The position numbers and the translations under genes were made by a program. This document shows, piece by piece, positions 11,612 to 38,504 of a stretch of DNA of 64,000 bases. The notes below the pieces were generated by a model. It was not told where the DNA came from. It made no database searches and worked only from the letters and a program-made list of their open reading frames with translations. This stretch comes from Monodelphis domestica (lineage: Eukaryota; Chordata; Mammalia; Didelphimorphia; Didelphidae), in assembly GCF_027887165.1 (NCBI RefSeq), contig NC_077232.1, positions 2,409,064 to 2,473,063 on the forward strand. Reading direction: 5' to 3'. Numbering within the stretch: the stretch's first letter is position 1; each line of letters starts with the position of its first letter.

Positions 11612-11751
11612 CTGAAGAAAAGTTGATAGAACTCGGAGAATCGTTGCCTGTTATATTTGATGGTGGTTCCAGATACTTCAAAGTGGGATATGGCGGAGAA
11701 TACAGCCCCCGATTTGTCTTCCCCAGTGCCATTGGGCACTACAGATGGCAG
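11612..11751 (+). CDS. Actin-like gene, first identifiable coding exon (N-terminus)
   Basis: The exon follows a pyrimidine-rich acceptor (cttttctatag) and ends at CAG|gttagt. It opens in phase 1 of a split codon, so an upstream exon must donate one base and the ATG. It encodes the first nucleotide-binding loop as [13 protein letters not shown], against DNGSG-CKAGFAG in canonical actins: D11, G13, S14 and K18 are kept, G15 is Arg. It ends after [12 protein letters not shown], the equivalent of the VFPSIVGRPRHQ end at codon 41, where vertebrate actins have an intron. No in-frame ATG lies in the exon. Confidence 0.85.
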
Positions 11752-14700
11752 GTTAGTGTCCCCTAAGATGAGTGGCTATCATCTCTGTGGAGTCCCTTGG
11801 GATTGTCCCAGGCCAAGGCAAGTGTCCATAGAAGATCACACACATGGAAGAAAGCTGAGCCAGGAGTTCTGAATGATGTCCAAGACTGAGATGGTGCCTC
11901 AGGTTAGAGTGGACTCAGCCTTGTTGGTACTGTTCTTTTTGTTCATTCTCTTTCCCCCTAGGCTCTTCCAAACTTTCCTAGTACTGTGTTCAGGGCACCA
12001 TCTTCCTCTTAGGTCATCCGTGTTCCTAACTTAGATCATGATAGCAACAATAATAATCACCAGCACTTAGATAACATGTACTATGTGTCCAGGCTCTGGG
12101 CTAAGCACTTTACAACTGTTTTCTCATTCAGTTTGGGGAGGTAGATGTAATTATTATCCCCATTTTGCAGCTGAGAAAACGGAGGCAGGAAATGATTAAA
12201 TGGCTTGCCCAGGGACACATAGCTATTAAGTATCTGAGGGTAGATTTGAACTCTGGACTTCCTGACTCCAGGTTCAGTAGCCCATACACTGTGGTAACCC
12301 CTAATTGCTACTAGTTGAATGACCTGGAGTATTTCACAGTCTTTCTGGGCCTTAGTTTGCCCATCTGCAAAACGATAGAATTGGACTGGCCTTCGTATGG
12401 TCATCTCAGCACTAAATTCTGTGTTCCTGTACATCAGAGAAGGAGGCTTTGGGAAGTGCTCCTCAAAAATGTCCCCAGTGGCCCACAAAGCAAGTCAGCA
12501 CGGAGATCACTGGGCATTGGACCAAGTTTTGTTCTCAGCTTCCTTCGAGGGCAGAGGAGCCCTGAGTCAGCCCAGAAGATAACCCAGGCTGGTCCCCAAC
12601 AGCCCCAGGCCATGGGCAGTCTAGACGCTTAGTTGACAAGACCTTTTCAAGAGTGGGTTTTTTCCGAATTGGAAATACATTGAAGAAGCATCTAGACTCC
12701 CTTTTTGGAAGTCCCAACATGGAGGTTAAGCTGCCCCCTCTCCCACCAAACATACACACAAACACATATGCACACAGGCACACACGTGTGTACACACATT
12801 CCCTGAGCCTGATGATTCACAGGGATCCATTGGTCATACTCTTGGCATCCCTGGTTTCTCCTTCGTTGTGGAGGACCTCATGCAGCCACCAAGACTGGTC
12901 TGGTTTTGCCTCCTGGCCTTCTCTCTGCTGAGAAAGAGTCCAGGTTCTAAGAAGGGATCGAACAGGACCATCACCTCACTGATCTGCCAAAGGGCAGCGA
13001 GTTTGCTGTTCCCGGAGACCCAAGATCCCGGGGTGGGCCTCGGAGACCCCCGAGCCCAGACTACGCTGAAAGCCAATATCCAACTGGCCTCCAGGACCCC
13101 TGGGAAAGCAGCTGCTTGTAGGCCTCCAGACAGACACACCATCGGTCCTGGGACAGTGTTATGGGACAGTCCCCTCCCAGCCCTGAGTTCTGGACCTTTC
13201 CCTCCATGAAGCCTAGGACAGCACACATTTCATTGGCTGCCCTGCCAGGCACTCAGTTAATCAGCACTTAGTAAGTGCCTATGATGTGCCAAGCACTGGA
13301 CTAGTTTCTGGGATGCAAAGAAAGGCAAAAAAACAGTCCCTTCTCTCAAGGGACTCCCAATCTATTAGGACAGACAATAAGCAACTATGTACAAATAAGC
13401 TATATAGACAGGATAAATAGTAAATAATTTAGGACAAGTGCTAGAATTAAGAGAAATTAGAAAATGCTTCCTTTCTTCTTCCCTTCCTTCCTCCCTCCCT
13501 TCCTTCCTTCCTTCCTTCCTTCCTTCCTTCCTTCCTTCCTTCCTTCCTTCCCTCCTTCCTTCCTTCCTTCCTTCCTTCCTTCCTTCCTTCCTTCCTTCCT
13601 TCCTTCCTTCCTTCCTTCCTTCCTTCCTTCCTTCCTTCCCTCCTCCCTCCCTCCCTTCCTTCCTTCCTTCCTTCCTTCCTTCCTTCCTTCCTTCCTTCCT
13701 TCCTTCCTTCCTCCCTTCCTTCCTCCCTTCCTTTCTTCCTCCCTCCTTTCCTTTCTTCCTCCCTCCCTCCCTTTCTTCCTCCCTCCTTCCCTCCCTCCCT
13801 CTCTCCCTCTCTCCCTTCCTTCCTTCCTTCCTTCCTTCCTTCCTTCCTTCCTTCCTTCCTTCCTTCCTTCCTTCCTTCCTTCCTTCCTTCCTTCCCTCCT
13901 TCCTTCCTTCCTTCCCTCCTTCCTTCCTTCCTTCCTTCCTTCCTTCCTTCCTTCCTTCCTTCCTTCCCTCCTTCCTTCCTTCCTTCCCTCCTTCCTTCCT
14001 TCCTTCCTTCCTTCCTTCCTTCCTTCCTTCCCTCCTTCCTTCCTTCCTTCCCTCCTTCCTTCCTTCCTTCCTTCCTTCCTTCCTTCCTTCCTTCCTTCCT
14101 TCCTTCCTTCCTTCCTTCCTTCCTTCCTTCCTTCCTTCCTTCCTTCCTTCCTCCCTCCCTTCCTTCCTCCCTCCCTTCCTTTCTTTCCCTCTCCCTCAGT
14201 CAGAGCCACTAAAGATTTTTCAATGTCAAACAGACAATTGGGTTCTTGATCTCTGAAGCCAGTGGAAAGAAATGCCCAGACATTTTTGAGCTGAGAAATG
14301 TCTTGCTTGGGATGTACTTTAGGGGTCTCACTTTTGCAGCTATGCAGAGGATGGATCAGAGAGAGGAGCCCCCCTCCCCGATGCTGAGGAGTCCAGTTGG
14401 GAGGCTCTTGTAAGAGTCCAGAGAAAAGAAGGGGGTCCTTAGGTCCTGAAGAAGATGAATGGAAGTGAAGTCATGGAGGTAAAATAGGTAAGACTTGGCA
14501 TCTGATGGAAGTTCGCTATGTAGGTAGCGAGAAAGCAGAGCTGTGTAGAGTCCCGGAGTGCTTGTGTTTGTCCTAGGATTGCATCTCCTTCAGACAGCTA
14601 TGTAAATATGGCCCAGATTCTATCCACAAGCACCGCCCCCCTTTCCGCCATCCCTCAGCCAGCATCTGGACAAGGAGGCAGCAAAGGGCGAGCACAAGCA

Positions 14701-17700
14701 AGAGCCCCTTTCCTTGCTCTTAGTGATGGATATTTCGGATGGTGAGTGAATCCCAGAGATGGAGCTCACTGAAGGGACTTTACAGGCATAGACTCTGATT
14801 TCTCCTTCTGTGATGAGCAAACAGGTCCAAGGAAGCCAGGTCATTCACACAATGGGACCCACCATCATAGGTCAAAGGGTGGCCTTGAACCTAGATGTTC
14901 CTCATCAGCTACTATATGCTACTGGATCTGAGGAATAGAAATGAGGCCTGGTGGGGTTATGAATGTATGTATATACCGATATACACATTGACATGTATAT
15001 AGTTGAAGGAATGAGGAAATACATAGCTTGGAGTAGTGAAGACAAAAGGAGGTGAGATAACTACCTTTGATTGAGGAGGTTTGTTCTGCTTGGCCTGGAA
15101 GGCACCACTGGGAAATTTGGATGGAAGCTGTTCAGAGGCAAATAGAATCTGGATTCCCTAAGGATGGTGGCTCCCCAAATACATCAGGAGCCTGCTTTGG
15201 GAGGTAGTGAGCTTCCCATCCCTGGAGGTCTTCAAGCAGGAGCTGATGAGCCCCTGGTATGGGATCTGTGTCCCTGAAGGGATCCTTGGTCAGCTGTAGC
15301 TTGTTCTATATGGCCCCAAGTTCTTTCTAGCTGTGAAATTCTACGATTCTCTATCTGAAGACAACAATAAAAATTAATCACAATGAATTTATCCTAGGTT
15401 GCACTGTTTGGGGCTTTATGTTTACTAAGCACCATCACAACCCATGTGAGTTTCTTATGTGTTAACACTCAGCCAGGGGTTCTGATTATTCTCTTTTTTG
15501 AAAAACTCTTCCTTTCTATCTAAAAATTGATACTGAATGTTGATTCTAAGGCAGAAGAGTGGTAAGGGCTAGGCAGTGGGGGTTGTGACTTGCCCAGGGT
15601 CACACTCAGCCGGTCAGATTGACACCCAGGCCCTACCATCTCCAGGCCTGGTGTTCTATCTACTGAGCCACCTGGATGGCCCATTATTATCCTCATTTTT
15701 CAAAGGAGGAGACCATCATCACCGTTGCAGGAGTGTGCTCCTGGGGGCCAGGGTATGCCTGCAAAACTTTTGTCCCTGGAGGTATCCTTAATGAGGATTC
15801 GTGTAGCACCACAGCACATGGGCTTGTATTCCTTCAAGGATGCTTTAAAGTCTGGATAGGTTTCCTCTTTCCACATGATGTGTTTGGGGTCACTGGGTAT
15901 CAGTAGACCTGAGACAACGGCTCTTCAGGCTCCAAAAACAAGGCTCTCCTCTGTCCATGTTTTCTTGTTTCTTAAACACAGATCCTATTCCTGGCTGCTT
16001 AGTTGAGTCCAGGGACACAGTGATGCAAGTTAAGTCATTTGCCTTGAGTCTTGAGGCCCATGAGAGCAGGGCACATAGCATTCCCCATCTTCTGCCCTCC
16101 TGGCAACCTCCTGTATTGAGCTGGAATTCTCACTTCTCTGTTCCTAGCTATTGGTGCCTGGGAAAGGGTATCCAGTCATCCAGTCATGGGGCCTTGCTTG
16201 ACTTGAGGCCAGCCCCTACCACAGCGAAGAACATAGGACTGGGGTTCAGAGCCAAAGAGCTGAGAGCAGGGAGATACGTGTGGATAGGATTGTAAATGCT
16301 CCTCTGGGGGGCAGAACTGGGGCCAGGAGTTCCTTAGGTAAGAGGGAGGGAAAAGACAAGGCCAGGGGGATCAAAAGGACCTCATAAGCATTTATGGCAA
16401 ATGAGTACAGTTTAATGCAAGCTGGTTATATATATATCTATTAAAGGCAAAAACCACAGAAAGTAAAAACAATCCTTGGAGAAACATCAAAGAGAAAGTG
16501 TAGCAGATATGGCTCCGACCGTCATCTGGGTTCATAGAATGGTCAAATCAGCAATAACATGTTTTGCTATGCTAAGCATAAAGAGGGTGAAGGCAAGGGC
16601 ACTCAGACCTTGTCTTAGACAGACCCTGAGCTATTGACCTCTGACGAGGGCACTCAGATCTTTGTCTTAGGTGGACCCTTAGTTATCGACTTCTGACAAG
16701 GGTGAGAAAGATGAAGCATGACTGGGGTCACTGGGGGGAAATGGGCCTCATGTCCTGGGACTCCGAGATGCTTGACATACAGAATAGAAATAACCATCCT
16801 TGACTACCTCTGAGGGGAGTTATTAAGAGTAATTAATGTAGGGCAAATCCAGAAGTGGTGGCTGAAAGAAACAGATGTTCATGTGGGAGTAGAAATCCAG
16901 AAGAAAACATGTACTTTATTGCTTGTTTATAGGGGGTTACTTAGAGTTTTGGCTTTAAAGGGCTGCTCTTTTACAAAAATGAATAATCTGGAATTGGGTT
17001 CGAGTGATAATATATAGATGTATAACCCAGTGGAATTGCTTGTCCACTCTGGGAGCAGGGAGGGAGAAAACACGAATTATGGAACCATGGAAAAAATGTA
17101 GAAAGAACTTGAAAAAGAAAGAAAACGAAAAGAAAAAAGAAACCTAAATTCAGCCTTGCCCTCCTCCCTGAATGCCCTTCTGTAAAGCTCCCACAGATGA
17201 GAACAGGCTGTCCTCCTATTATGTATGATACAACAAGTCCAGCCAATGACAAATTGCCACCTACCTTTTACAGAATATAAAATCTGGAATGGATTTAAGG
17301 GATACCTTCATTGGCAACGAAGTCATCGAAAAGTGGGCAAATCTCCTTGTGAAATATCCCATTGAACATGGAATCATTGTCAACTGGGACGACATGGAAA
17401 AGGTCAGTGTATGGCCAGGGGATGGAGGTGGGAAACTGGCAGGATGGCTGCTCTTGGGACCAGTCAGCTCAGTATAATCACCAGAACAGCTACTTCCATG
17501 TCCAGGGAAGAAGTCCTTTAAGAGAGGAGGTTTGTTAGGCCATGTTCAGAAAGTTGTACCCCAGGACTAAATAAGAAAGGAATCCTGTCCACGAAGACGG
17601 TTCAACTGGACACTTCAGCCTACTAGGTTTTCTTCTCTAATTCTATTCAATCAATAAACATTTATGAAGTCCCTACTGTATGCCAAGCACTCTACCAGGT

Positions 17701-20700: not shown

Positions 20701-22854
20701 CCTGATGTAGTAGTCTACAGTAGTTTGGAATTAAATGGTTTCCGATGGATGCAAATTGATGATTTGAAGATGCAACTTGCAGAATTTCAAGATAGCATCT
20801 GGGCTCAGGTGTTTGTTGACTTGAGGTCAAAGCTTGAGAATCTAGAAAGGTGCCGCTTGGAGAATCAAGAGGAGTGCTATTATGAACAGGAAATTTGGAG
20901 TGCCTGGAACCAATTACCAGACACTTTTAGCACCCTGAAAAATATAGCAATGGCTTTGCTCACATTTTTTCCCTCTACATATTTTTGTGAGACCTTATTC
21001 TCAGCATTAATCAAAACCAACAAAAGAAGCAGATTGACAGATGAAGTTAGTAGCACTTGCTTGGGCTGGAAGTGTACAAAATACTGACCTTCAATTGAAG
21101 ATTTAGCCAATGAAATTCAGCAACAAAAAAGTCACAAATAGACAGGTTAGTTAAAGAATTCCCCCTCCCCCTCATTTATCTTAGTTCATGGCACCCCATA
21201 CAAGTTAAGTATATCAAGACCAACAAAAGAAACTGACTGACAGATGAACAAAGAAGTCACTAAGCAGGTAAGTTAAATAATTAGTTTTTGGTTTATTAAA
21301 TACAGTTATATATTAAAATTATGCATTTTTGTTATTTGAACTAAAAATATCATGAAATTATGGTTATTTTCATGAAGTGACACACCATACAAGTTATGCT
21401 TGGTTTTTTGGTGAATTCTGACACACCAAGCTCAAAAGGTTGCCCATCACTACTCTAGAATGTCATCTGGAGGGGACCTCAAACACTACTGAGTTCTCCC
21501 CTTTAACTTATAGGAGAAGAAATTGAGGCCTCTGTAGAGCACTTGCCCAAGGTAACACATTCACATGATTTCAACAACTCAAAAAGATTTCCCTACCAGT
21601 ACATACATTTCTAATATTTTTCACATAGTTGTCTACCAGTGAAGGAAGAAAAACATTCTGGAAACTAATTTAGAATTATATACAAAAAGGTGCCCAACAA
21701 TGGCTAACCTGTGACTTAGGTATATGGCTGATAGACTCATTCTCAAAGGAGATCAACAACATTTATAGTGACTTTTCTTCTGGGTAGGAAAAAAAAAGGA
21801 AGCCAGAAGGAGGAGCAACAATTGAGGAATGACTCAATCAGTCATGGTCTAAGAATGTAGGAGGTGATGAGGGGATGGTTTCAGAGAAACTTATATGTAT
21901 GTAGACTTGTGTGAACTGATGCAAGGCAAAATGGGCAGAACCAGAACCATGTATCCTGGAGCATCAAGATGAACAAAAATGAACAATTCCAAAGACTTGT
22001 GGGAATGGATGATGGATGAAATGAGCAGAACCAGAACAGTTTACACAGTAACTTCTCTGTTGAGACAAATTACTTTGAAAGCTGTGAGAACCAGGTAGAA
22101 CCATCCACAGCTGAAGATGATCAATGAGGAAGCGTATCTACCTCCCAAGAGAAAGGAAAGCCCAAAAGAGAAAGGGAGCCCAGTGAGATGAGCCAATGAG
22201 GGAGTTTCTTTTGCTCCACTATGCATAACTGTTTCAAGGAACTTAGTCTCCCTTTCATTTACCCCTAATCGAAGTGGAAGGCTGGAAGGGAAAGACATTT
22301 TGTTTAATTAAAAAAAGAGAGAGAGAGAGCAGGCAGGAGGGACGTATTACAGAAGCAGAATCTTGTGTGAATCCCCAGATGAGGTCATGGTAAATGACTG
22401 CTGTTCTGGATAGGAGAGGAATCACACCAAGTTCTTTTTTCTCCTAAGATCTGGCATCACTCCTTCTACAATGTGCTCCATGTAGACCCAGAAAAACATC
22501 CTCTTCTGGTGACAGAACACCTCTTTACTCCAAAAGCCAATAAAGAGAAATTGATAGAGGTAAGCAAGGTGGGAGGAGAGAGAAGGAAAGGCAAGAATGC
22601 CAGCTTCTAAACCCTCCTGTGCCAGCACTCTCTGTTCTTACAGCCTTCCTAACTCTGACACTCTCTTTTACATTCTAAGGTTCTTCCAAGTTCTGATGTT
22701 CTGAGTTCTAGTAATCCTTCCAGTTCTGATTGTGTTCTAAGATTCCTTCTGGGTCCCTGTTATTGGTGTGGGTGTGTCCCTGTGGGTCAAGGAGTCAAAC
22801 ATCATTCACAGCTTAAATACATTGTAATCCTGATTTAGCCTCTCACGAATTCGG

Positions 22855-22910
<56 letters not shown>

Positions 22911-25900
22911 GGGAAATGAGGGAAGTGTTTAAGGACAGTATACATTGCCCAGCACCCTGAACAACCTCTTGTTGGAGGTTGTGATATCTCCCAATCCTAC
23001 CCATGATGCTATTTGCCAACTTGGTACCCGAGGCATCCGTTTCCTCTGTAAAAGAGCAATGGGCTGTCTCCTCTTATTGGAAGTTTGCAAGCAAAGGTTT
23101 AATGGCTGCTTGTTGGTTTTGGAGAAGAGATTTCTGTTCAAAGCAATTCAATGAACATTTGGTCCAGGTACTGCTCTAAGGGCTAGAAATGCAAAGATAA
23201 AACATTCCTGTCTTAGAGAACTTCTAGTCTATCTTCAAGAGAACATGGGTCTGAGATAAATGCAAAGGAAGGCTGCAAAGTAATTGAGAGAGAGAGAGCA
23301 CTAGTGCCGGGGTCCCCAATCTTTTTACACAGGGGGCCAGTTCACTGTCCCTCAGACCATTGGAGGGCCGGACTATAAGAACATAACCCTAACCCTAAAT
23401 ACGTTTCTATCCTAACCCTAACCCTAACCCTAACCCTAACTCTAATCCTAACCCTAACCCTAACCCTAACTGGGCAGCAGTATACACAGTGCGGAATCCC
23501 CTCCCCCAGATCACCACTCACCAATGCTGACGTCTTCCATTGAGCAGCCTCCAAGGTGCCACTGTGAGATTTAAAATGGTTGATGTCTTAAACTGTAGTG
23601 ATTAAAATATCACAGTTAAAATAAATTGTGATAGATATAAGAGAGGGTGAGTAAATTTGACCACAGAAATATGTTTCACTACAGTGTCTTGGGTTTTTAA
23701 AATCAAATATAAGGTGGTCGCCAGGGAAATATTCCCAATTATTCAAATACCCAACTCAATTGGGTTTTATTGAGATTTTAATTAACAATACAATGAGTAA
23801 TCAAAGAAAGAAAGAGAAAGAAAGGAATAAGTATGAAGGGCCTCAAGCCAATATGGCCTAGACCTGAGTCTTAAAAGAGAAATCAGTCAGTTTTTTAACA
23901 CTCACCACAAGGTCTGACTAAACAAGGATACTAGTGACACCAGGCCAGCATCCTTCCTCAAAGAGTCTTCCAGCCAGAGATTGTTTCAAAGGGCCTCTCT
24001 CAAGAGCCTCCAGAGCTCCTACCCCAGAGGGACAGAGCCCCTCAGAGGAGCTCCTCAAGGAGCTCTCCTTCAGAATGAGATTTCCTCCAAGAGCACTTCT
24101 CCTCAAAGAGATCTATCTCCAAGGAAAGAGCCCTCAAGCATCAGTCCTCAAGGAAATGAGTCTCTCAGAATGAGATCCTCCAGAATGAGAATCAGAAATC
24201 GAGATCCCTGAATGAGACCCAAGCTCTTATTTTTAAGGGCAAAATTTTCTCTGTCACCTCCCCTAAGTCCTTACATCTACCAGTCACTGTAGCTGTTTCT
24301 AAAGGACCGCCCATTTTGAATTCACAGCTGAGTAGTTTTAATCTCTTTAGTAAGTCAGAAAAAAATGCTGCTGTGTCGACAAATTTCATTAAGAAAAAAC
24401 CTCTGAATAAGTTATCACCCTTTTAGGTTTAAGTAGTTTACAAGTTGCCCCACCTTTATAGGCACTTAGCATCCCATTGTATCAATTTTAAAAACAGGCA
24501 TGACTCAAAGAACTTCCTGTCCTTTCCATAAGCATGGATCAAAGTACTTTTCATTGTTCTCAAGGAGCTCTCTGTCATAAAGCAGTCCTAAGTAGGGTGG
24601 AGTAGGGATATTCCCAAGGCAAGGAGCCCCCACACTCAAGTAGAGTTCTCACCATCTGCTAGGGAATTTTTTTAAGTAGAAGATTCCCCAATGGGGAAAT
24701 TTCCAACATTCATAAGTCTGAGAAATTTTAAGGTTTACACCACTCAAAGGATTATGTCACTGGAAATAGTTCTGTATGTGAGTGATGCCACGCTTTGAGG
24801 CACTGCCACATGCGGTGCTCCTCTCACTGACCACCAATGAAAGAGATGTCCCTTCCAGAAGTGTGGTGGGGGTCGGATACATGGCCTCAGGGGGCTGCAG
24901 GGGGCCTGGGGCCCTAGATTGGGAGTGGGCATGAGGAGGGGAATAAGAAAGGCCTCCAGTAGGATTTGGGCAGTGCTTTGAAAGAAGTTGGGGATCCCTT
25001 GAGGTGGAGAGGTTCAAGTGCCCCAGATGGAGATTCAGTGGCCCGGGGTCTCTTCCGGCAATGACACCCCAGGACCATGTAAGTAGATATTGCTTATGTG
25101 ACTGATAGACGGGGCACTGCCTTCTCCCTACTTTTTCCCTCTGGCCCTCAATAGTGGCCCTTCCTGACCACTGACTCTCTTGCAGGTCATGTTTGAATCC
25201 TTTAGAGTTCCTGCCTTATACGTAGCAATCCAGGACATCTTGTCACTGTTTTCTTCAGGCCGGACATCTGGTGAGTGCTGGCATCTCCATTCTGTTTTGC
25301 CTTGAAATTAGTTTTCCCAAATGTGTCCGTCAGAACCAAAATCTGCCCAGGCTATAGAATGCCCCATTCTTACCAAAGGGGGTCGCATGAGGAGCTCCTC
25401 TAAGGCCTCCCTCCTTGCTGGCAGTCTCTTTCCATGCTCTGAAGTCCTGCTTAGCTCTGCCGTTCTGTATTCCGGGACCCCTTCAGACTCTGCATTCTAA
25501 GGTTCTCCCCAGCCTCGCCCTCCTCTATTGGTCTCAGATTCCTCCCACCTCATGTGCTACATTCTAAGGGCTCTCCAGGCTCCATTGCCTGCCAGGCCAC
25601 CTTTTAGGTCCTGTTTCCTCCCACTCCCACCATGCCAGTTCTAAGGTCCATCCCCGCTTTGCTAGTTTATAGCCTTCTGCTGATCAGAGGGGGGGTGGGG
25701 CGTGGAACCTGCTAGAGAGCTGCCAGCCAATGGGCAATGCCCATCTGCACAGGTTTCCTCAGCCTGGGTAGTGCCAGGATTATTCCTCTTATTCTACACG
25801 TGAGGAAGCTGAGGCTCCGCTGGGCCACTCTGACCTTTGGTCTTGTTTTCGTCTTGGCAATCTCTAAGGTTCTTTCCAGCCCTCCATCGGTGAAAGGCCC

Positions 25901-28900
25901 ACACTGGTCAGAGGTTACCCAACCTGAGGCAGGGCTCGCCAGGCCTCGTCCCTCTGATCCGGTGCTCTCTATACACGAATGCCTCTTTGGAATTCCCGGG
26001 GAGATGGCGGCCTCTCTCTCCGAACCTGGCTGAAGGGGCCCCACTTTGAGCTTCAGGCCAAAATCCGATCCTGTCCCGACACCCACTAGACCTGGGCTTT
26101 GGCTTCTTTCGAGCAAAAGGACCCGCCCGCTTGGGAGGGAGCCAGTCTTGAGGCTGGACAATCGCCTTCCCAGAAAAATTAGGTCTGGTCTGCCTCTGGC
26201 ATCCCAGCGCAGAAGGGGGGGGGGGTGGGGGACCCTCCAGGCTCTCCTCCAGCTCCCATTCCCATCCTCGCCTTTTCTGGGTTCTGAGTTGTGCCCGGCT
26301 CTGGGCCTCCGCTCCAGGCCAGCGGCCGCTCCGGTCACTCCCCTCCCGAGGTCTCCGGCTCTCTTAAGATTTCATGGCCGTCCCATACCCATGTTCCAAG
26401 GGTCGTCCAAGCTCGGAAGGGCCTCAAGGCTCCGGAGGGAGTGAGGGCCGGCTTCCCCGGTAGGCGGTGTCTCTGGAGCCCCGCCCCTCTGCCTTTGGTC
26501 CACATCTCCCCCCCACCCCCCCAGTTTTCCCCGCTCAGCTCCGCTGAAGAGAGCGGCGGACGCTGCTCTGGCTTCGCCGGGGCTCACCTGGGCCTCCTCC
26601 TCTTCCAGGACTCATCGTGAACTCCGGAGATCAGATGACGTACGGCGTGCCCATCGAGGGCGGCGACATCCTGCCCGACTCCATCATGACCATGGAGGTG
26701 GCCGGCCACGACCTCTCTATGGCCCTCATGAAGAGCCTCGTCAACAAGGGCTACTCGCTGTGCACCATGGGTGAGGCGGCACAGCCCCGTCAGGCAGCGG
26801 GCCAGGGGCCGCCCACAGACCTTCCCCTCATTGCGGCAAGCGTGGCTTAAACGTGTGCCCAGCCTGGGCCCTCATTCCGTCTCCCTGGAACTGTGCCACC
26901 CCTTCTCCGACGGCCACTTTGCCCAGAGCCCGTCTCCCATAACCGCCCCATCTAGTGCCAGACTGATCTTCCCAGGGGCACACACAGCACACTTGCATAC
27001 ACCTGCACTTGCACACACGCATGCAGGCACACTCACACGTGTACACACATGGCACTTGCACACACGCATGCACACACGAACACGCATGCACACGTGCACA
27101 CACACACAAGAAACGTCTGTCAGTGGCTCTCTGGTGCCACGAGCACCAAGTACAAACTCTTCTGGCTGGCAGTGAAAGCCCTTCCGAGCCTGCTCCGGCC
27201 GGCCTTTCCGAGGAGATTTCCACCAGGCTCCCTCCTGGCGGCCCTCCGCGTGGCCGCCTTTACCAGAAGCCATTTCCACACACCATGTCCCGCCTCCTGC
27301 CCCCCGTAGCTCTCTTCCCCACCCCCTCCAAGCTCAGCCCAGGGCCGCCTCCTTCCGGAAGTCCATTTACAGTGGATGCACCCCCTCCCCGGCCAGCAAA
27401 GGTTTGGGCTGTCCTCGGGTCTGATCTGCTGCCCCATCTGCTGAGATCCCGGGCGGGGGGGGGGGGGTGTCTCCATAGTCACTTCTGTGTGCCCCCCCCA
27501 GCCCCTTCCCCACACCCGGCTTCCCCCCAGCACGGGCCCTGGGGCACAGCGGGTGCTCCCTGGATACCTGAAAGGCTGGATGGATGCATGCCCAGAGCTG
27601 AGGATAAAGAGATCACCGGAAAAGAAAAAGCCTCAAGGAGTGGCTTATATATTGGGGGGGGGGGGAGCATTTCTGTCATATAAAGGGGGCTATGAGGGCA
27701 GCTGGGTGGCTCAGGGGATGGAGAGCCAGGCCCGGAGATGGGAAGTCCTGGGTTCAAATTTGACTTCAGATACTTCCCAGCTGGGTGACCCTGGGCAAGT
27801 CACTTGGCCTCACCTTTACTGCTCTTCTGCCTTAGAACCACTATATCATATTGAATCTAGTGGAAGGTGGGGGGTTTTCTAAAGGAAATGACATGAGAAA
27901 GGGGTCCTCCTGGCCCTCCCCCATCCCGGCTCTGAAACAGGCAGTTCCCATCCTGGGTCTTCTCTTCCCCCAGTTGAACTGAACTTAGTGAGAGCCATCA
28001 AGGAGAAGCTGTGCTACGTGGCTTTGGACTTCTTCGATGAGATGTTTTCAGAAGATGCCACAGCGGAGACCTTCACGCTCCCTGACGGCCGCATCATTTC
28101 CGTGAAGGAGGAGAGGTACCGAGTTCCTGAGGCTTTCTTCCAGCCCTCCTTGCTAAGTATGTCCACCAGAGACAGACAGGCTGGTAAATGAACATGTCCT
28201 CACACGTGTGTGCACACACATGCACACACATGCCTGTGGTAGCCATGCATGGCTCTGGGATGTCCTAAAGCAGGCAGTGGGGATTGTGGGGTCCAGCAGG
28301 GAGAGATGACGTGGGTGGGGTGGCCACAGCCAGAACGAGGAGGGGACTTGAAGGCTTTTCGGGGTGGGGGTGGGGATGCTGCTGGTTCAGTCACTTATTC
28401 AGTGCCTGCCCTGTGCTAGGCACTTTGTCAAGCAGCCTGGTCACGTGGACACGAGAGACTCCGTCTTGCCTGGAGGAGCCTCTCAGAGGCCAGCCTCGTG
28501 GCCTCGGTCCATTGGGCAGGCCGCCTGGCGAAGCCTGCAGAGTCGTATCAGAATACGCACAAAGTAAGAGCTTCAAAGGGCTTCCTAGGATGCAGGATGC
28601 AGGATGCAGGCCCCGGGAAAGGCAGTGATGGCTGTTCCGGCCTCGGGGCAGTCAGCCAGGGTGGGTGTCCAGAGTCCATACATGGATAAGCTTCATTGGG
28701 GAGGGAGGAGGGCAGGAAAGGCGTCCTGTGGAAGCTGACTTTGGGAGGCCACGAGGAATTCCAGGGGCTCATCTGGGATGGAGGGACAGGAAAGCCTGTC
28801 CTTAGGGACAGCACTCTGAGGGAACAGTGCCAGCAGCCCAGCTCAGGGGAAAGCCGGGAGACAGCCTGTGACGTCAAGGAAGTAAGAAACTGACTAGTGA

Positions 28901-29650: not shown

Positions 29651-29736
<86 letters not shown>

Positions 29737-32700: not shown

Positions 32701-33746
32701 TTAGAATCAGGGCAATACTCTAATCTATCATGTGTTTAAGTGGTATAGTGGATAGAGAAGTGGTCCTGGAGTCTAGAAGACCTGAGTTCAAATGCAGCCT
32801 CAGACACTTACTTGCTGTATGACCCTGGGCATGTCACTTACCTTAGTTTAGTTAACTGCAAAAAGGTGGTGATAACTTTTCGGAGTTGTCATGGGGCTCA
32901 AATGAGATAATATTTGCAAAACACTTAGTACAATGCATGACCCCTAGAAGGTTTTTAATAAGTGCCTGTTTCTTTACTCCAAATCCTTCAAGATCCTTTT
33001 GATTCCTGACTGTAATCTACTATGGTAGTTACCCTTCCCAGCTTGGTGGCATCTGAAAACTTGCTGAGCAGATAAATGGTGATAAATCATATTATGATGA
33101 ATGATAATGCAAACTTTTATGCCTTCATCCAAATAATTAACAAAAATATTCATTAACACAGGACCAAATAGAGATTTTTAAAGTATGCCACTGGAGACCT
33201 CCTGCCATGTTACCATTGAATTATTAACAACACCTCTTTGAGTCTAGTCAGCCAATTAGTTTTGAGACTATCTGATTGATGTAATCCATCTCTCCATCAG
33301 AAAAAAAAATAGTTTGAAATGTTTTTTCAAAAGCTTTGCAAAAATCTAGATAAACCACGGGCGTTCCATTCCTCAGCCATTTGTTTAAAGATCCTGTTAA
33401 AAGGGGAACCAATGCCTTCGCTCTGCTTCTCCACTCCCATCCGTGCTTTTCCAGATCTATTCCTTTTATACTTTTTCCTGCCTGTGTTGCAGAACCTCTG
33501 AGCATGCATCCCTGGGAAAAGAATTCATTCTAAGGTGTCAATAACCAAAAAAGCTCGGAAAACCATGGAATTTTAACAACAATCTGTGTGCCTTAACTCA
33601 AAAAGACAATTAACGAGAATATTTCAGATGTGGGGAAAATTTAGGGGTGAGGTGGAGATATTCAGACTACAACATGAACTTTTTCTACTTGTGGCTCCAC
33701 ACTTGACACCTGACCCCACTTTCAGGAGCATAGCTCTGCCTTCCGA

Positions 33747-33793
<47 letters not shown>

Positions 33794-36700
33794 CTGCTCT
33801 GATTACTCAGGCTACATTAAGGCTCTCTTTTGTGTCTTTGGGTTTCAGAATTTATAATGGTAGTCATTGGTGGGGAGGGAGTGGCAGGTAGAAAAGAGCT
33901 ACTGAGGGTTGGCAGGGGTCAGTTCCCTCTCTACTGTGTTCTGTATGCTTGTCATGTGATAGAACAGAACATTTTATAAGAATTCTATCCCAAGTTGTTT
34001 TGCTACAGGCTTATTGTCACAGCCTCAACCTTGATTGGCAAATAAACACATTTCTCACATGGGCACATGGGGGTTAGGGTGGCACAGGAATTGCTATATC
34101 ATACATAATACCTGAGCAGGGAATGGAGAGCTAGAGGGTGCTTTTCCCTATCTCCCTGCTTGTCTGTGCATCAAGGGAAGCTCAGAAATATATTAAAATC
34201 CCACTTTCTTTTAGAAATCTTTCCCGATTCCTCCATGAAGGTTAGGAGCTTTCCCTCTTTTGAATATCTCTGATTTATCATGTCTAAAGTTTATTTGTAT
34301 GTAGCCGATTGCATGTTGTCTCCCCCATTCAGACTTAGCTCCTTGAGAACAGGGGGCCTGTCTTTTGCTTTTCTTTGTATCCTCAATAAGTGTGTGTTGA
34401 CTGACTGACAGACCCATATCAGGTACATTTCTCTTTGGGAAACAAGCACTCTCACCCAGAACTTTCTGACCCGAGTGGGTTTACTCATGCTTGACTTAGT
34501 TGGGGAACAATCCAAATAGCCTGGGGCCCCAGAAGGCAGCCCAGCTGGATAATTCTCACCTCCTGGAAACAGCCCTTCCTCCCTCTTGAAATAGTTCCAT
34601 CAGACTTGAGCAGTATCACCAGCAGCAAAGTGTGCCCAATAGTTTGTCCCCTGGGCTTGGCCATTGGCCCTAGCCATGGTGCTGAAGCAGCTGTCCTCAG
34701 GTCTGCTCTTTCAGTAACGGTGGTGGTGCGTTCAGCTTTGCTAAGAGACAAATGCTAAGCCATCCCCTCTCTGTTTTCCTCCCAGATTTCACATGTCCGG
34801 GTCTTCACAAAAGCATACACGAACTCATTATGAACTGTGACCCAGTTCTAAGGAAGATATTCAAAATGAACACCATCCTTTGTGGAGGCAGCATGGCATT
34901 CCCAGGCATGGAACGACGGATGGTAAAGGAGCTCCAGGCCCAGGAGCATCAACTGACTAATATTAAGGTAGTTTATTCCTGAAGGAGGTGGGTCCTTCCC
35001 ACTCAGTGGTCCTGAGCCTGGCAGCTCTTGCAGTTAGGACAGAGAGTTCTACTGCTAAGACCTGCTAGAAACATCAGGTGATTCTTGGTCCATGGTCTGA
35101 CAGCGAGAAACAATGACCCTTCTCAGCAGCCTGCAGACTGCATAGGATAGTCCTTTGAACAAGCTTCTGGCGGGCTTTGAGAGAACATGAATGGTTGTTT
35201 GATTTCATAATTCAATAACTGATTTTTCCTCCTCTTGGCCCCTCGGCTTTTTTTCTGCTGCTGATTATTTACAGCACAGCAGAGGTTGGAACATGGAGCT
35301 GTCTTCCCATTGGAGTTCTCCTCCTAACTCACTATATGATCTCAGTAAGTCATTTCTGAGGATCCATTTCTTCAGTAGTGAAATATGGATAAAACCATCT
35401 TTTAGATCATGGGGAGCTTTATATCTTTTTTCTCCTTTTTTCAAGACTACTTCATTGAAGCTTATTTTTGTGATTTTTCCAAACATACTTGCCACTTCAA
35501 ATAACTTTTCCCCCACCAAGAAGTACCCTCCTGTGTAACCAAGGGCCCTAGTTATGGAAAGCAAGCATGCATGCCTAATAGCATCATCACTTCTCTGTTT
35601 AGAAGAGGAAAAAAATCTCCCCCTCTTCACTTTGTAAGATTATTGTGGAATCTGATATGGAAATATGGAAATGAGGAGGGAAAGGCAGAAAGAAGCACAA
35701 GAAAATTGAGATGAACCTCAGGGGTTCAGCATTATCAATAACAGGGCAGGCAGGAAGGGCTAGAGTGTCAAGCCTACCAAGGACCAGCTCGACAGAATCA
35801 GTTAGCGTTCCCCAAAGGCATCAAGGACAGATTCAATTGGGGGTCTGGAGGGCTTGAGGCACTGAGAGCAGCAACCAGAAGCACTTTATTGGAAATTACA
35901 TCTTTTTTATATGGGGGAAAAGCAAGCTGGGGATTTTGCACAAGTTTCCATTTACCCAGTGAAGGTAAATGATTTACAAATTTGATACAAAGGATTTGGT
36001 TTACCTTATCGAATCTAGACAGAGTTTTCTATAGGCTAATAAATCAATATGTCAATGTGTAACTATCTAACCCAGATTCACATTGAATGCATACCTCAGA
36101 TTTTGTAGGAACATACAGTTTCAGCAGATGGGGAGGAAAAGGAGGGAATTGAAACCTCAGGTGGTATAGGCTACATGTCTGACTTTAGCTGAACTATGGC
36201 TACCTCCAGAGCTTTGCCCCCCTACACTAGAGGACATGCCTCTAAGGTTGGACCCTTTCCCAACAAGACACGAGCTTGAGTTGCTTGCTGGTGGTCCAGA
36301 CAGCCAGGGGTAGAAGTCCAGCCCTCTCTCCCCTTGAAAATTTGCAGCTGATAAAAGTTTAATTGTTTCAGCATTGTTTCAATCATAATTACAGGAAAAA
36401 ATCCATCATTTCCCAAGTTGCTTCTCTCTACCACCCACATGTCCTGGACACCCCACTTCTCTCCTGTTTCTAGCTAGATAGGGAGTTATCTTGTGGTTGC
36501 CTAGAGAAACATGGAAATGAAATGGGTTTCATGGTGATGATAAGGCCTTGTTGGGGCCACATATAGGCAGGAGTCTACTTGAGAAGACCTGTGATTGTGG
36601 CTCTAAGGCCAATAGGAAGTAGCACTACCACATGACAATTCACAGTAATAACGGTTTCCCCTAAGATGGGAAAAGAGCATTCAGCAATAAGGAAATCCTA

Positions 36701-37729
36701 AAGGGCTCTGAGGTCTGTCTCTGATCACAGCTGAAATATCAAGCTTACTTGTGGGATTCATATTATTGAAAAGACAATGGAGAAGCTAAAGAGCTTGTGT
36801 TCAAAACCCAACTCTACTTCTTATTTTGAGTGTGGGAGACCCTCTTTCTCTCTCTGGGACTTAGCCTCCTTTTTTGAGAGGGGTGAAAATAGAAAGTCTT
36901 TTCTAGGGAATGCATTGAAGACATTTATTATGGGCTTCCTGGGTGCCAAGGCATGGAAATATGAATATATGCTCTAAGTCCTATGATCTATGAATGCCTT
37001 TACTTTCCAGGAAAATACATTCCCTGTCCAGAGTCCTGGTGAGCAACGATGAACTCCAGCCCATCATCTTTAAGGAGATCATTCACTCAGTCAGGTTTAT
37101 AAGCCTGTTAAGTTCCTATAGGCACTGGGGATGCTCCTTATGCAAAATCAGGAGGGCTCAATGTATGACCTTGAGAAAGTCACAGACTCCTCTGCCTCAG
37201 TGCCCCTATCTGATAAAATGGTCGTCTATGCTCCTGTACTAGCTCATAAACCAGGAGAGCTTAAGCAAAGCCCCACACAGTTAAACTGAGGCTCAGGATG
37301 GTTTTGACTCACCCATGATATTGCAGTAAGTGCCAGAGGCAGGTCTTGAATCCCTTCCTCTGATCCCACAGTCAGTATTCTTAACCTTGTACTATATTTA
37401 TAACAGCCTTTTGAGATCATAGTAAAAGTATGAGGAAAACTCAAGAGAGTGACTTGCACAAGGCTACGCAGCCAGTAAGAGTTTGAGCAAGGTCTTTCCT
37501 GACTCTGAATTCCACCCTGCTCCCACTCCACCACACGGCTTTAGTTCCTTCCTAGGAACTCTTTTTCCATGGTTCCTTCCTTCAGGTGATCGTGCCTTCA
37601 GAATGCTGGTTCTCTTCCTGGTGTGGTGGCTCCATCCTGACTGGTCTGAATTCTTTTCAACATATGTGGATCTATGATTATGAATATCAGGACATTGGCG
37701 CTACCATCATCCATCGTAGATGCTTCTGA
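11612..37729 (+). CDS. Divergent actin-family gene, 8 coding exons found (whole span)
   Basis: A spliced actin paralogue. Exons: 11612-11751, 17274-17402, 22449-22559, 25186-25270, 26609-26770, 27974-28156, 34786-34967 and 37586-37729. Phases agree across every junction and no exon contains a stop; together they encode about 378 residues against about 375 for canonical actin. Retained actin hallmarks (muscle numbering) are D11, S14, K18, the KYPIEHG block with His73, NWDDMEK, YVAIQ with Gln137, [11 protein letters not shown], the CGG of the third nucleotide loop and the C-terminal HRRCF with the penultimate Cys. Changed sites include G15 to R, D154 to N, G158 to Q, H161 to Y and K336 to W, so ATP binding or hydrolysis is probably altered. 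Intron positions match those I recall for smooth-muscle actins, pointing to DNA-level duplication. Filament formation and tissue are unknown; testis is a guess by analogy with other divergent mammalian actin-like proteins. The ATG exon is not identified. I do not recognise a named orthologue. Confidence 0.9.
12040..12300 (-). repeat. MIR SINE, reverse
   Basis: Reads caataataatcaccagcact ... gggctaagcactttacaact ... ccccattttgcagctgagaa ... cttgcccagggacacatagc, the reverse of the MIR core and tail. It lies in intron 1 of the actin-like gene. Confidence 0.85.
13258..13440 (-). repeat. L2 3'-end fragment, reverse
   Basis: cagcacttagtaagtgcctatgatgtgccaagcactgg ... gtcccttctctcaagggact is reversed L2. 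It lies directly beside the (TTCC)n tract that follows. Confidence 0.7.
13466..14196 (+). repeat. Long (TTCC)n microsatellite, about 730 bp
   Basis: Nearly pure tetranucleotide with interspersed ccct variants, a continuous polypyrimidine tract on the + strand. It generates spurious frames of 250-272 codons of Leu/Pro/Ser/Phe or Glu/Gly/Arg/Lys on the two strands. It lies in intron 1. Confidence 0.98.
14200..15035. other. Unassigned intronic stretch
   Basis: Within intron 1. No gene or clear repeat recognised; a short tatgtatgtatataccgatatacac alternating stretch lies near 14965. Confidence 0.4.
15050..15355 (+). repeat. CR1/L3-type LINE 3' end
   Basis: ttctgcttggcctggaaggc ... gtgagcttcccatccctggaggtcttcaagcagg ... 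is the recognisable CR1/L3 3' end motif. Confidence 0.6.
15500..15685 (-). mobile_element. Marsupial tRNA-derived SINE, reverse
   Basis: Reverse of the SINE at 50235: ttgattctaaggcagaagag, cttgcccagggtcacactca and ctactgagccacctggatggcc are shared. It lies in intron 1. Confidence 0.85.
15690..16596. other. Unassigned intronic stretch
   Basis: Intron 1; chance frames only, no family recognised. Confidence 0.35.
16597..16704 (+). repeat. Two-copy tandem duplication, unit about 54 bp
   Basis: agggcactcagaccttgtct ... cctctgacg is followed by agggcactcagatctttgtct ... cttctgaca, two diverged copies side by side in intron 1. Confidence 0.8.
16705..17273. other. Intronic sequence, possibly an old repeat tail
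   Basis: A-rich end (17090-17140, aaaaagaaagaaaacgaaaag) after gtggaattgcttgtccact looks like the tail of an interspersed element, family not identified. Confidence 0.3.
17274..17402 (+). CDS. Actin-like gene, exon for codons 42-84
   Basis: 129 bp, the same length as the smooth-muscle actin exon for codons 42-84, with acceptor ccttttacag and donor AAG|gtcagt. The D-loop half is diverged (Met44 position is Lys, Met47 position is kept), while the second half, [17 protein letters not shown], is nearly canonical and includes His73, which is methylated in actins. By hand alignment about half the residues are identical to vertebrate actin. The intron after DDMEK is typical of smooth-muscle actin genes. 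Confidence 0.93.
17640..17775 (-). repeat. L2 3'-end fragment, reverse
   Basis: tcaataaacatttatgaagt ... gtatgccaagcactctacca ... ccttgccttcaaggac matches reversed L2, intron 2. Confidence 0.7.
18265..18483 (-). repeat. MIR SINE, reverse
   Basis: tcaagcacctactatgtggc ... gctaagcactttacagatat ... ctgttttacagttgaagaaa, reversed MIR, cut at its far end by the hAT insertion that follows. Confidence 0.8.
18492..21452 (+). mobile_element. hAT DNA transposon, about 2.96 kb, with 8-bp target duplication
   Basis: The element is bounded by the exact 8-bp duplication ctctagaa (18484-18491 and 21453-21460), the hallmark of hAT elements. Termini form imperfect inverted repeats: left ccgtgatggtgaacc, right ggttgcccatcacta, and both ends carry the word gacacac just inside. 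It contains a decayed transposase. It sits in intron 2 of the actin-like gene and in the same orientation. Confidence 0.93.
19290..21087 (+). pseudogene. Decayed hAT transposase (BED finger and hATC domain)
   Basis: A BED-type zinc finger is still readable near 19338 (CILC ... NRHFEINH). The RNase-H-like core starts with [16 protein letters not shown] near 19785, giving the first catalytic Asp, and [12 protein letters not shown] near 19975. The C-terminal dimerisation region reads [20 protein letters not shown] near 20975. The style resembles the family that gave rise to ZBED5 and the C-terminus of GTF2IRD2. Stops and frameshifts (for example near 19334, 19836, 20125, 20419, 20541) break it, so it is a fossil. 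Confidence 0.9.
21590..22320 (+). mobile_element. Old L1 3'-end fragment (tentative)
   Basis: gcaaaatgggcagaaccagaacc, atgagcagaaccagaacagtttacacagtaac and the closing A/G-rich tail near 22305 resemble the 3' end of older marsupial L1s. It lies directly upstream of the codon 85-121 exon. Confidence 0.45.
22449..22559 (+). CDS. Actin-like gene, exon for codons 85-121
   Basis: A 111-bp exon too short to stand out as an open frame. It reads [20 protein letters not shown] followed by [17 protein letters not shown], matching the canonical block [21 protein letters not shown] and TEAPLNPKANREKMTQ. Acceptor is cctaag and donor is GAG|gtaagc, both phase 0, and the length equals that of the corresponding smooth-muscle actin exon. 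It joins the exon ending NWDDMEK to the one starting VMFESF without a gap, which makes the assignment firm. Confidence 0.95.
22858..22909 (+). repeat. (TG)n microsatellite
   Basis: 26 TG dinucleotides in a row, intron 3. Confidence 0.98.
22930..23130 (+). repeat. CR1/L3-like 3' end
   Basis: attggaagtttgcaagcaaaggtttaatggctg resembles the L3 motif ggaggtcttcaagcagaggttggatggcc; intron 3. Confidence 0.4.
23145..23260 (-). repeat. L2 3'-end fragment, reverse
   Basis: caattcaatgaacatttggt ... gctagaaatgcaaagataaa ... ctgtcttagagaacttctag, reversed L2. Confidence 0.6.
23303..23562 (+). mobile_element. hAT (Charlie-like) fragment, left part
   Basis: Starts with the terminus gccggggtccccaatctttttacacaggggg followed by gccagttcactgtccctcag, a well-known hAT end, possibly of the OposCharlie (OC1) group. 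It carries a telomeric array inside and is interrupted at 23563 by a solo LTR; the body resumes at 24744. Confidence 0.6.
23383..23470 (+). repeat. Interstitial telomeric (CCCTAA)n array
   Basis: About a dozen CCCTAA units on the + strand with one 13-bp non-telomeric break (atacgtttctatc near 23399-23411) and two variant units (ctctaa, tcctaa). It lies inside the hAT fragment in intron 3. Confidence 0.97.
23563..24739 (-). mobile_element. Solo ERV LTR inside the hAT fragment
   Basis: 1177 bp, TGTGAGATTT ... GGTTTACA, flanked by the 4-bp duplication ccac (23559-23562 and 24740-24743). The minus strand carries AATAAA near 23767, so the LTR reads on the minus strand. It shares its end (cataagtctgagaaatttta) with the LTR at 5317-6270, so the two are family members. 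No coding sequence. Confidence 0.88.
24744..24915 (+). mobile_element. hAT fragment, right part
   Basis: caaaggattatgtcactgg ... continues the hAT body after the LTR and ends near the GC-rich tcagggggctgcagggggcc. No clean right terminus was seen, so it is truncated. Confidence 0.45.
25186..25270 (+). CDS. Actin-like gene, exon for codons 122-150
   Basis: 85 bp, exact family length, acceptor ctcttgcag and donor CTG|gtgagt. It encodes [16 protein letters not shown] and then [13 protein letters not shown]; the catalytic-water-positioning Gln137 of YVAIQ is kept. It ends one base into the glycine codon, matching the phase of the next exon. Confidence 0.95.
25690..26608. other. CpG-rich stretch in intron 4 of the actin-like gene
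   Basis: The intron just upstream of the codon 151-204 exon is visibly richer in G+C and CpG than the rest of the window (gcggccgctccgg near 26320, gccgggg and cggcggac near 26550-26580). Several chance open frames arise from this composition. It could be an internal CpG island or a local GC-biased conversion patch; no TATA or other promoter element was recognised. Confidence 0.4.
26609..26770 (+). CDS. Actin-like gene, exon for codons 151-204
   Basis: 162 bp, exact family length, acceptor tcttccag and donor ATGG|gtgagg. It encodes the second phosphate loop as [18 protein letters not shown]; canonical actin has IVLDSGDGVTHTVPIYEG. Asp154 is Asn, Gly158 is Gln and His161 is Tyr, the sites linked to Mg-ATP coordination and hydrolysis, while Asp157 is kept. 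Codons are much richer in G and C at third positions than in the neighbouring exons, in line with the CpG-rich intron just upstream. Confidence 0.94.
27005..27112 (+). repeat. (CA)n-rich imperfect tract
   Basis: cacacgcatgcaggcacactcacacgtgt and similar alternating purine-pyrimidine repeats, intron 5. Confidence 0.85.
27120..27310 (+). repeat. L2 fragment, sense
   Basis: gagcaccaagtacaaactct ... gctggcagtgaaagcccttc ... matches the sense strand of the L2 3' region; intron 5. Confidence 0.6.
27690..27880 (+). mobile_element. Marsupial tRNA-derived SINE
   Basis: ggcagctgggtggctcaggg ... tcctgggttcaaatttgact ... gtgaccctgggcaagtcact; same family as 50235-50435. It lies 95 bp before the codon 205-267 exon. 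Confidence 0.88.
27974..28156 (+). CDS. Actin-like gene, exon for codons 205-267
   Basis: 183 bp, three codons shorter than the usual 192, so the frame is kept. It encodes [20 protein letters not shown] (Lys213 and Glu214 retained), then a shortened subdomain-4 segment, LPDGRIISV and [11 protein letters not shown] chose the gtatgt donor at 28157 because it leaves the phase needed by the next exon; reading through would reach a stop at 28189. The shortening falls in the region that is ATAASSSS-like in canonical actin. Confidence 0.9.
28160..29560. other. Intron 6, left part, mostly unassigned
   Basis: A short (CA)n at 28201-28235 and an L2 scrap at 28388-28435 (cttattcagtgcctgccctgtgctaggc). 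Otherwise no gene or repeat is recognised. Confidence 0.4.
29565..29865 (+). repeat. (GA)n / (GACA)n-rich microsatellite
   Basis: A pure GA run at 29653-29728 is followed by gagacaga repeats. It creates spurious Arg/Glu frames on + and Leu/Ser frames on -. Intron 6. Confidence 0.97.
29870..30175 (+). repeat. CR1/L3-type LINE 3' end
   Basis: gccttgttctgcttggccat ... gtccctttcagtggaggtattcaagcagaggttgc ... matches the CR1/L3 3' end, as at 15050. Confidence 0.65.
30283..31420 (-). mobile_element. 5'-truncated L1, minus strand
   Basis: Poly-T, then 3' UTR (gtctacatccccaatcatat) and the reverse complement of the C-terminal end of ORF2 up to ttttgtttgtacaaaatctt. It is flanked by gagctgag (30275-30282 and 31421-31428). 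It lies in intron 6, opposite to the gene. Confidence 0.92.
31570..31740 (-). repeat. MIR fragment, reverse
   Basis: gaggccttagaggtaaagcaacctgcccaagatcatg ... gctggattccaacccagact, reversed MIR. Confidence 0.55.
32110..32350 (+). mobile_element. Marsupial SINE with RTE-type tail (Mar1-like)
   Basis: gagtttgaatctggcctcagac ... gaaggaaatggcaagccact ... ccaagaaaacctcac shows the tRNA-like head and the RTE-shared tail; counterpart of the reversed copy at 56045. Confidence 0.75.
32380..33520 (-). mobile_element. CR1/L3 LINE relic, minus strand
   Basis: ttctatgccttcatccaa-like text (33117-33135), ggaccaaatagag and, on the minus strand, [10 protein letters not shown] near 33360, the conserved RT A-motif of CR1-type LINEs. 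It is interrupted by a THER SINE at 32735-32960. Confidence 0.8.
32735..32960 (+). repeat. THER/MIR SINE
   Basis: taagtggtatagtggataga ... cctgagttcaaatgcagcct ... ctgtatgaccctgggcatgt ... ataatatttgcaaaacactt. Confidence 0.85.
33747..33791 (+). repeat. (CA)n microsatellite
   Basis: 22 uninterrupted CA units, intron 6. Confidence 0.98.
34320..34415 (+). repeat. L2 3'-end fragment
   Basis: gacttagctccttgagaaca ... cctcaataagtgtgtgttgactgactgac, canonical L2 terminus 370 bp before the codon 268-327 exon. Confidence 0.75.
34786..34967 (+). CDS. Actin-like gene, exon for codons 268-327
   Basis: 182 bp, exact family length, acceptor ttcctcccag and donor AAG|gtagtt. It encodes the hydrophobic-plug side as [13 protein letters not shown], then [27 protein letters not shown] and ERRMVKEL. 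The third nucleotide loop, GGTTMYPG in canonical actin, is GGSMAFPG here. It follows a 6.6-kb intron packed with L1, CR1/L3 and SINE relics. Confidence 0.94.
34968..37270. other. Intron 7, mostly unassigned
   Basis: No gene recognised. A MIR-like scrap lies near 35290-35420. The stretch 35700-36650 has LTR-like text (aagcactttattggaaatta near 35881) but no ends could be fixed. Confidence 0.35.
37275..37510 (-). repeat. MIR fragment, reverse
   Basis: ctgaggctcaggatggtttt ... gtgccagaggcaggtcttga ... tgacttgcacaaggctacgc, decayed MIR pieces just before the last exon. Confidence 0.45.
37586..37729 (+). CDS. Actin-like gene, terminal exon and stop codon
   Basis: 144 bp including TGA, acceptor ccttcag. 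It encodes the C-terminus [20 protein letters not shown] and ends [16 protein letters not shown], against EYDESGPSIVHRKCF in canonical actin; Cys374 and the final Phe are kept, Lys336 is Trp. The length equals the last coding exon of vertebrate actins. Confidence 0.95.
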   Translation: MIVPSECWFSSWCGGSILTGLNSFQHMWIYDYEYQDIGATIIHRRCF

Positions 37730-37818
37730 GCTTGGTCCTACCCCCCCGCCCCCCACACACACACCAGGCCATTCTATCTTGCTTCCAACTCCAAACTTCT
37801 CCTCCTGAGGTAGCCCTC

Positions 37819-37824
37819 AATAAA
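37819..37824 (+). promoter_or_regulatory. AATAAA polyadenylation signal of the actin-like gene
   Basis: An AATAAA hexamer lies 90 bp after the stop codon with a GT-rich stretch downstream (gtctggggtg), which gives a short 3' UTR of about 110 bases. It sits before the solo LTR at 37913, so the gene does not depend on the LTR for its end. Confidence 0.65.
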
Positions 37825-37912
37825 AGTCTGGGGTGCCAACACCCATTCTGTTGACCTTATTTCTGAAGGTTCAACCTTGAATCTTCTTTGAGGCAAATGT
37901 TAGAGATAATAA

Positions 37913-38405: not shown

Positions 38406-38460
38406 ATAATAACTTCAGGATTTACTCCCAGCAAGGTAGTTATGAAGCTGAAATGAGAGA

Positions 38461-38503: not shown

Positions 38504-38504
<1 letters not shown>

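Follow-up and report, generated by a model that had tools for sequence, protein, structure and literature searches.

The 64-kb stretch of Monodelphis domestica DNA analysed here (the window) contains an actin gene of eight exons on its plus strand. When the whole window was searched by tblastn with a beta-actin sequence, eight collinear plus-strand pieces were returned between 11650 and 37726 with E values of 1e-16 to 3e-4; pieces at E 0.27 or worse were discarded as chance. Together with the splice borders, these matches define exon 1, the first coding exon of the conventional actin plan (11612..11751, 140 bp), exon 2, which carries the D-loop and extends to residue 84 (17274..17402, 129 bp), exon 3 (22449..22559, 111 bp), exon 4 (25186..25270, 85 bp), exon 5 (26609..26770, 162 bp), exon 6 (27974..28156, 183 bp), exon 7 (34786..34967, 182 bp) and exon 8 (37586..37729, 144 bp including the TGA), which ends in IIHRRCF. 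Behind the acceptor tctcttttctatag, exon 1 opens with 2 nt that complete a split codon, and its donor is gttagt. GT and AG border all seven introns, with the 14 splice dinucleotides intact and every phase compatible. Splicing yields 377 codons followed by TGA, with no internal stop and no frameshift in 1131 coding bases, and residues 12-377 of the product match positions 6-410 of the 410-position Pfam Actin profile (PF00022; E=2e-103, 346.6 bits). A chance assembly of exon-like pieces is excluded by the eight collinear matches and their fitting splice borders, which are far beyond chance, and a processed (retro) actin pseudogene is excluded by the seven intact introns and the absence of stops and frameshifts. 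An AATAAA motif 90 nt past the stop codon (37819..37824, plus strand) is, by its pattern only, a possible polyadenylation signal.

A preliminary description of this DNA had called the gene a spliced, open, strongly diverged actin in eight exons and had proposed in silico splicing of its exons as a check. The exact exons, the seven GT-AG introns, the absence of internal stops and an identity of 47-49% to conventional actins bear this out, and splicing gave an open actin of 377 residues. The same description spoke of an unbroken actin-length protein, which holds for the 377 open codons and their terminal stop but overlooks that exon 1 is devoid of ATG.

The kilobase 26001-27000 around exon 5 is CpG-rich (GC 0.64, CpG o/e 0.56); it lies in mid-gene, not at the 5' end, and might be an internal promoter. 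In intron 2, at 19315-21087, open pieces were seen that by eye resemble a hAT-type transposase or a ZBED-like host gene. Two plus-strand L1-type retrotransposons with long ORF1/ORF2 stretches, named by eye from their translations, occupy 2051-5338 and 42888-48437, the latter with open stretches of 351 aa (42888-43943) and of 402, 456 and 454 aa (between 44564 and 48437). CTTC/TTCC tetranucleotide arrays in the same orientation are present at 13467-14185 (about 180 copies) and 59747-60525 (about 195 copies), and the second of them, a GGAA microsatellite when read from the other strand (about 59.7-60.5 kb), gave a minus-strand Yae1_N Pfam match that was taken as an artefact. The Pfam scan for neighbour genes covered 5400-11611 in four of six frames and 37800-42700 and 48500-64000 in six. 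Within these stretches it found no convincing neighbour, Gp_dh_N, AalphaY_MDB and PRIMA1 all falling below their cut-offs; Rfam (at gathering scores) and a tRNA scan found nothing in the window.

Exon plan and relationship to other actins

Alignment to conventional actins places the exon ends at codons 41, 84, 121, 150, 204, 267 and 327 (mature numbering). Smooth-muscle actin genes have the exon plan 129/129/111/85/162/192/182/144, a total of 1134 or 377 codons plus stop, and introns at codons 84 and 121, additional to the muscle set, are the mark of these genes. Both are present here. The introns at 150, 204 and near 328 that one study gives for vertebrate muscle actin genes (PMC2753633) are found in the gene as well, to judge from its exon ends. 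The available excerpt of PMC3690210 holds no intron plans. The preliminary description had recognised smooth-muscle exon lengths and phases, and indeed each of the seven introns agrees with that plan in both position and phase. The one exon that it reported as three codons short proved to be exon 6, at 183 bp versus 192 in smooth-muscle actin genes, and this is the sole length change relative to the smooth-muscle plan. Since the spliced, open gene keeps the smooth-muscle-type exon plan, our results also back the earlier proposal that it arose by duplication of a smooth-muscle-type gene at the DNA level, which speaks against a retrocopy; the later specialisation proposed along with it would be a hypothesis.

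Twelve reference proteins were compared with the gene product, the letters of Arp1 being verified. Identity to conventional actins was 48.9% for ACTB, 48.5% for ACTA2, 48.4% for ACTA1, 48.1% for ACTBL2 and 47.3% for yeast actin; among the ARPs it was 38.9% for ACTRT2, 38.6% for ACTRT3, 37.5% for Arp1, 37.4% for ACTRT1, 36.2% for ACTL9, 35.9% for ACTL7A and 30.5% for ACTL8. Identity to ACTA2 varies by exon, from 0.35 in exon 7 to 0.69 in exon 4 (chi-square p=0.045, on counts derived from fractions). In a search of PDB, ACTA2 came first and ACTG2 second among the best 60 of 166 sequences, with a small lead of 1 to 8 bits over the others listed. At 23 isoform-diagnostic positions, 6 residues are smooth, 3 cytoplasmic and 14 neither, and 2 of the 6 smooth ones fall in the uncertain N-terminal tail; the diagnostic residues would therefore be weakly smooth-muscle-like.

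The phylogeny against actins and ARPs that the preliminary description had suggested was run with 12 references. In the resulting 13-row tree, the conventional actins form a group (86/93) that excludes the gene; the gene itself is a long branch, and the forks around it are weak (61/78 and 59/19). AU tests rejected no clade with conventional actins or Arp1, giving p 0.276 with the muscle actins, 0.189 with ACTB/ACTBL2, 0.281 with the four vertebrate actins, 0.31 with all five conventional actins and 0.273 with Arp1. Clades with ACTRT1-3 (p 0.142), ACTL7A+ACTL9 (0.323) and ACTL8 alone (0.338) were likewise not rejected; with ACTRT1+2 and ACTRT3 omitted, p was 0.035. Pairings with ACTL9 alone (p 0.0007) and with ACTRT2 alone (4e-7) were rejected, which says little because each pairing also splits an established one, ACTL7A with ACTL9 or ACTRT1 with ACTRT2. 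When ACTL8, ACTL7A and ACTRT1 were removed, the gene sided with the conventional actins and Arp1, off ACTRT2, ACTRT3 and ACTL9 (91/91), and adjoined ACTA1/ACTA2 at only 55/68. The sequence tree thus does not place the gene, whose placement is carried by the intron set.

The 5' end of the coding region

In a gapless alignment to smooth-muscle actins, the position of the ancestral ATG is occupied by TTG (11623-11625), 11 nt past the acceptor of exon 1. This exon contains no ATG, and the reading frame, which stays open upstream as far as 11443, has no Met there either, which rules out an ATG start within the exon-1 open frame; the start must have been relocated, be non-AUG or be lost. The interval 5400-11560 was searched for an upstream start exon, with an approximate donor score of at least 2.5 and an ATG up to 400 nt from the donor. 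Only two donors with an ATG-opened frame in the correct phase emerged, at 7508-7601 and 9414-9528, and neither candidate is convincing. Over 1-11600, just one start-exon donor reached a score of at least 5, and it is located inside an L1. On the same approximate scale, the seven donors of the gene itself range from 1.2 to 6.3, so a threshold of 2.5 would miss some true start-exon sites. Translation might begin in a further, still hypothetical 5' exon, and this exon may be situated past the L1 at the left end of the window and so not be part of it.

Nucleotide pocket and contact surfaces

Alignment revealed the ATP-pocket replacements G15R, N111T, D154N, G158Q, H161Y, R177T and K336W, position 15 being Gly in all 12 references. 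Exon 5 encodes both the second phosphate loop (D154N, G158Q, H161Y) and the W-loop (Y166E, Y169D). Here we take D154 and G158 to belong to the second phosphate loop, H161 to be the catalytic His and Y166 and Y169 to lie in the W-loop; N111 and R177 are presumably the pair that gates phosphate release, and residue 336 presumably sits at the adenine. Thus, where a conventional actin has D154, H161, G15 and G158 intact, the gene has N, Y, R and Q. Q137, D157, K213, H73, M47 and the C-terminal Cys-Phe are retained.

Identity to ACTA2 was measured over a set of 29 nucleotide-pocket positions and compared with that of all other positions. The gene scored 15/29 in the pocket versus 168/343 elsewhere. 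The corresponding values were 22/29 versus 177/342 for Arp1, 27/29 versus 297/346 for yeast actin, 23/29 versus 156/343 for ACTRT1, 21/29 versus 160/344 for ACTRT2, 19/29 versus 163/343 for ACTRT3, 16/29 versus 107/329 for ACTL8, 15/29 versus 147/342 for ACTL7A and 15/29 versus 135/342 for ACTL9. Pocket identity in the gene equals that of the rest of the protein, so that protection of the pocket is missing, much as in ACTL7A and ACTL9. The barbed-end cleft is identical at 12/23 positions in the gene, 18/23 in Arp1 and 13-16/23 in the ACTRT proteins and ACTL7A/9; being no better kept than the rest, it does not in itself argue for partner binding. Positions of longitudinal contact rank with the least conserved of seven sets (19/53, p=0.039, uncorrected for that number), and they are low in Arp1, the ACTRT proteins and ACTL7A/9 too (11-24 of 52-53).

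These replacements suggest that the protein would keep the actin fold and have given up the ATP-hydrolysis cycle, since replacements strike the gamma-phosphate loops, the catalytic His161 and Asp154 and the Arg177-Asn111 phosphate gate alike. Ordinary filaments would probably not be formed either, because the D-loop and W-loop contacts are replaced. The protein could instead have a structural role in a specialised tissue, lending its actin fold to partners. Such a role has been proposed for divergent ARPs of the sperm head, and it is by analogy to other divergent actins alone that a germline use may be proposed.

Traces of selection

Back-translated ACTA2 was evolved neutrally to 49% identity in 200 runs with stops rejected. 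Reaching this identity needs about 472 mutations, along which about 16 stops would have appeared (0.0345 per random substitution). The mean BLOSUM62 score of changed sites is -0.06 in the gene and -0.52 in the simulations (sd 0.12, best -0.12), and none of the 200 runs reached the gene. The share of conservative changes is 0.366 versus a simulated 0.288 (sd 0.032, maximum 0.386) and that of radical changes 0.230 versus 0.314 (minimum 0.226), so these two of the three measures fall just within the simulated range. The substitutions are filtered, clearly on mean BLOSUM62 and borderline on the other two measures; with a mean above all 200 neutral runs, the protein has probably long been under selection. 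If mammalian sites change neutrally at 2-3e-9 per year, the 472 changes over 1131 bases would have taken very roughly 140-210 million years, unless positive selection made the change faster.

The gene keeps 38 of the 43 columns that are invariant across the 12 reference actins and ARPs and changes 5. When each reference was treated in turn in the same way, Arp1 and ACTRT1 each kept 43/45, ACTRT2 43/44, ACTRT3 and ACTL9 43/47, ACTL7A 43/48 and ACTL8 43/57. The gene is thus looser at invariant columns than the ARPs, ACTL8 excepted.

Interpretation

On balance, and with somewhat more confidence than doubt, we read the gene as an old vertebrate muscle-type, most likely smooth-muscle-type, actin paralogue: a genomic-DNA duplicate with its seven introns kept, diverged to about 49% identity, selected and non-hydrolysing. 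It looks like a real old gene, not debris. Against this reading stand the missing ATG and the lack of a convincing upstream start exon in the window, the long branch in the tree, the few smooth-muscle residues at diagnostic positions, the two BLOSUM measures within the simulated range and the ordinary conservation of the barbed-end cleft; erosion of the pocket, too, would equally be seen in a decaying gene. The main rival is that an old actin paralogue has recently died, its start lost when ATG became TTG at 11623, and has been drifting for too short a time to gather other lesions. The missing ATG keeps this alternative alive: in exon 1, TTG occupies precisely the place of the ancestral start, the window yielded no strong start exon further upstream, and five of the 43 invariant columns are changed. 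However, no stop or frameshift has arisen in the coding bases and every splice dinucleotide is intact. Given the simulated stop frequency, an indel ratio of about 0.1 and 28 splice bases, hand arithmetic limits neutral divergence since death to under about 0.02 substitutions per site, so that any pseudogene would have to be young; by similar arithmetic, a single random lesion would strike the start codon only about 2% of the time. We therefore regard a recent death as unlikely, though it deserves to be taken seriously. Also doubtful, a shade more so, is the bolder proposal that the gene encodes a nucleotide-independent pseudo-actin, an intron-bearing muscle-type paralogue that possibly pre-dates the marsupial-placental split, was lost in placentals and, its actin fold retained, plays a structural role without ATP cycling.

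That the gene still encodes a conventional polymerising isoform, tissue-specific and fast-evolving, with nucleotide binding altered but working, is quite improbable. Its best matches are conventional actins and the residues listed above from Q137 to the C-terminal Cys-Phe are retained, but G15R at a position that is Gly in 12/12 references, together with G158Q, H161Y, D154N, Y169D and K336W, is hard to reconcile with such a protein, as is a pocket conserved no more than the rest. We see as little, or slightly less, prospect that the gene is a testis ARP of mammals that has introns, as a member of the ACTRT or ACTL7/9 families or as their progenitor. The gene does share the derived residues R37H, K336W and Y337F with ACTRT2 and H161Y with ACTL7A/ACTL9; at doubly changed sites it has the same residue as ACTL9 in 27/93 cases (0.29), which nearly matches the 38/125 (0.30) of the true relatives ACTL7A and ACTL9, and the AU test accommodates clades with ACTRT1-3 and with ACTL7A+ACTL9. 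Yet residue sharing with the six other ARPs is only 0.17-0.24, identity is 37-39% to ACTRT1-3 and 36% to ACTL7A/ACTL9 versus 48-49% to vertebrate actins, a clade with ACTRT1+2 but not ACTRT3 fits poorly (p-AU 0.035), and its introns are those of a muscle actin gene; the rejected single pairings add little weight, as they break known ARP pairs. A relation to ACTRT or ACTL7/9 thus appears weakened.

Comparison with known actins

Among the literature matches listed, drawn largely from outside subscription journals, none described a marsupial actin of this kind or a diverged intron-bearing actin; the gene may be undescribed. It is like ACTA2 and ACTG2, its best PDB matches among those listed, in all seven coding intron positions and phases and in Ser89 and Met176. 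Unlike them, it lacks three exon-6 codons and the ancestral ATG, has the residues of its ATP pocket, D-loop and W-loop replaced, and retains only 48.5% identity to ACTA2. With ACTRT1, ACTRT2 and ACTRT3 it has in common a strong divergence, an altered residue 161 and the change K373R, and with ACTRT1/2 also R37H and Y337F; however, in ACTRT1/2, which are intronless, the ATP pocket is more conserved than the remainder of the protein, unlike in the gene. ACTL7A and ACTL9 resemble it in H161Y, in a pocket identity of 15/29 each and in a divergent actin fold, but are only 36% identical to it; both are intronless and carry N-terminal extensions.

ACTBL2 is likewise an extra vertebrate actin outside the classical six, but it is a nearly normal cytoplasmic actin, with 48.1% identity to the gene, and is reported to be intronless in mammals as well as in other amniotes (PMC7870945). 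Drosophila Arp53D, a non-canonical actin relative with reportedly high testis expression (PMC8291977), can be likened to the gene by description but is of insect lineage. Few proteins are as constrained as the conventional actins of vertebrates, of which the muscle actins evolve slowest (PMC7870945). If our preferred reading of an old, selected muscle-type paralogue is true, a muscle-type actin with every intron and half the identity would be an actin that escaped this constraint through DNA duplication, and it would let one test which parts of the fold persist in an actin freed from ATP hydrolysis and filament contacts. The divergent actins usually discussed in mammals are largely retrogenes, and the gene would then represent a different route to a divergent actin.
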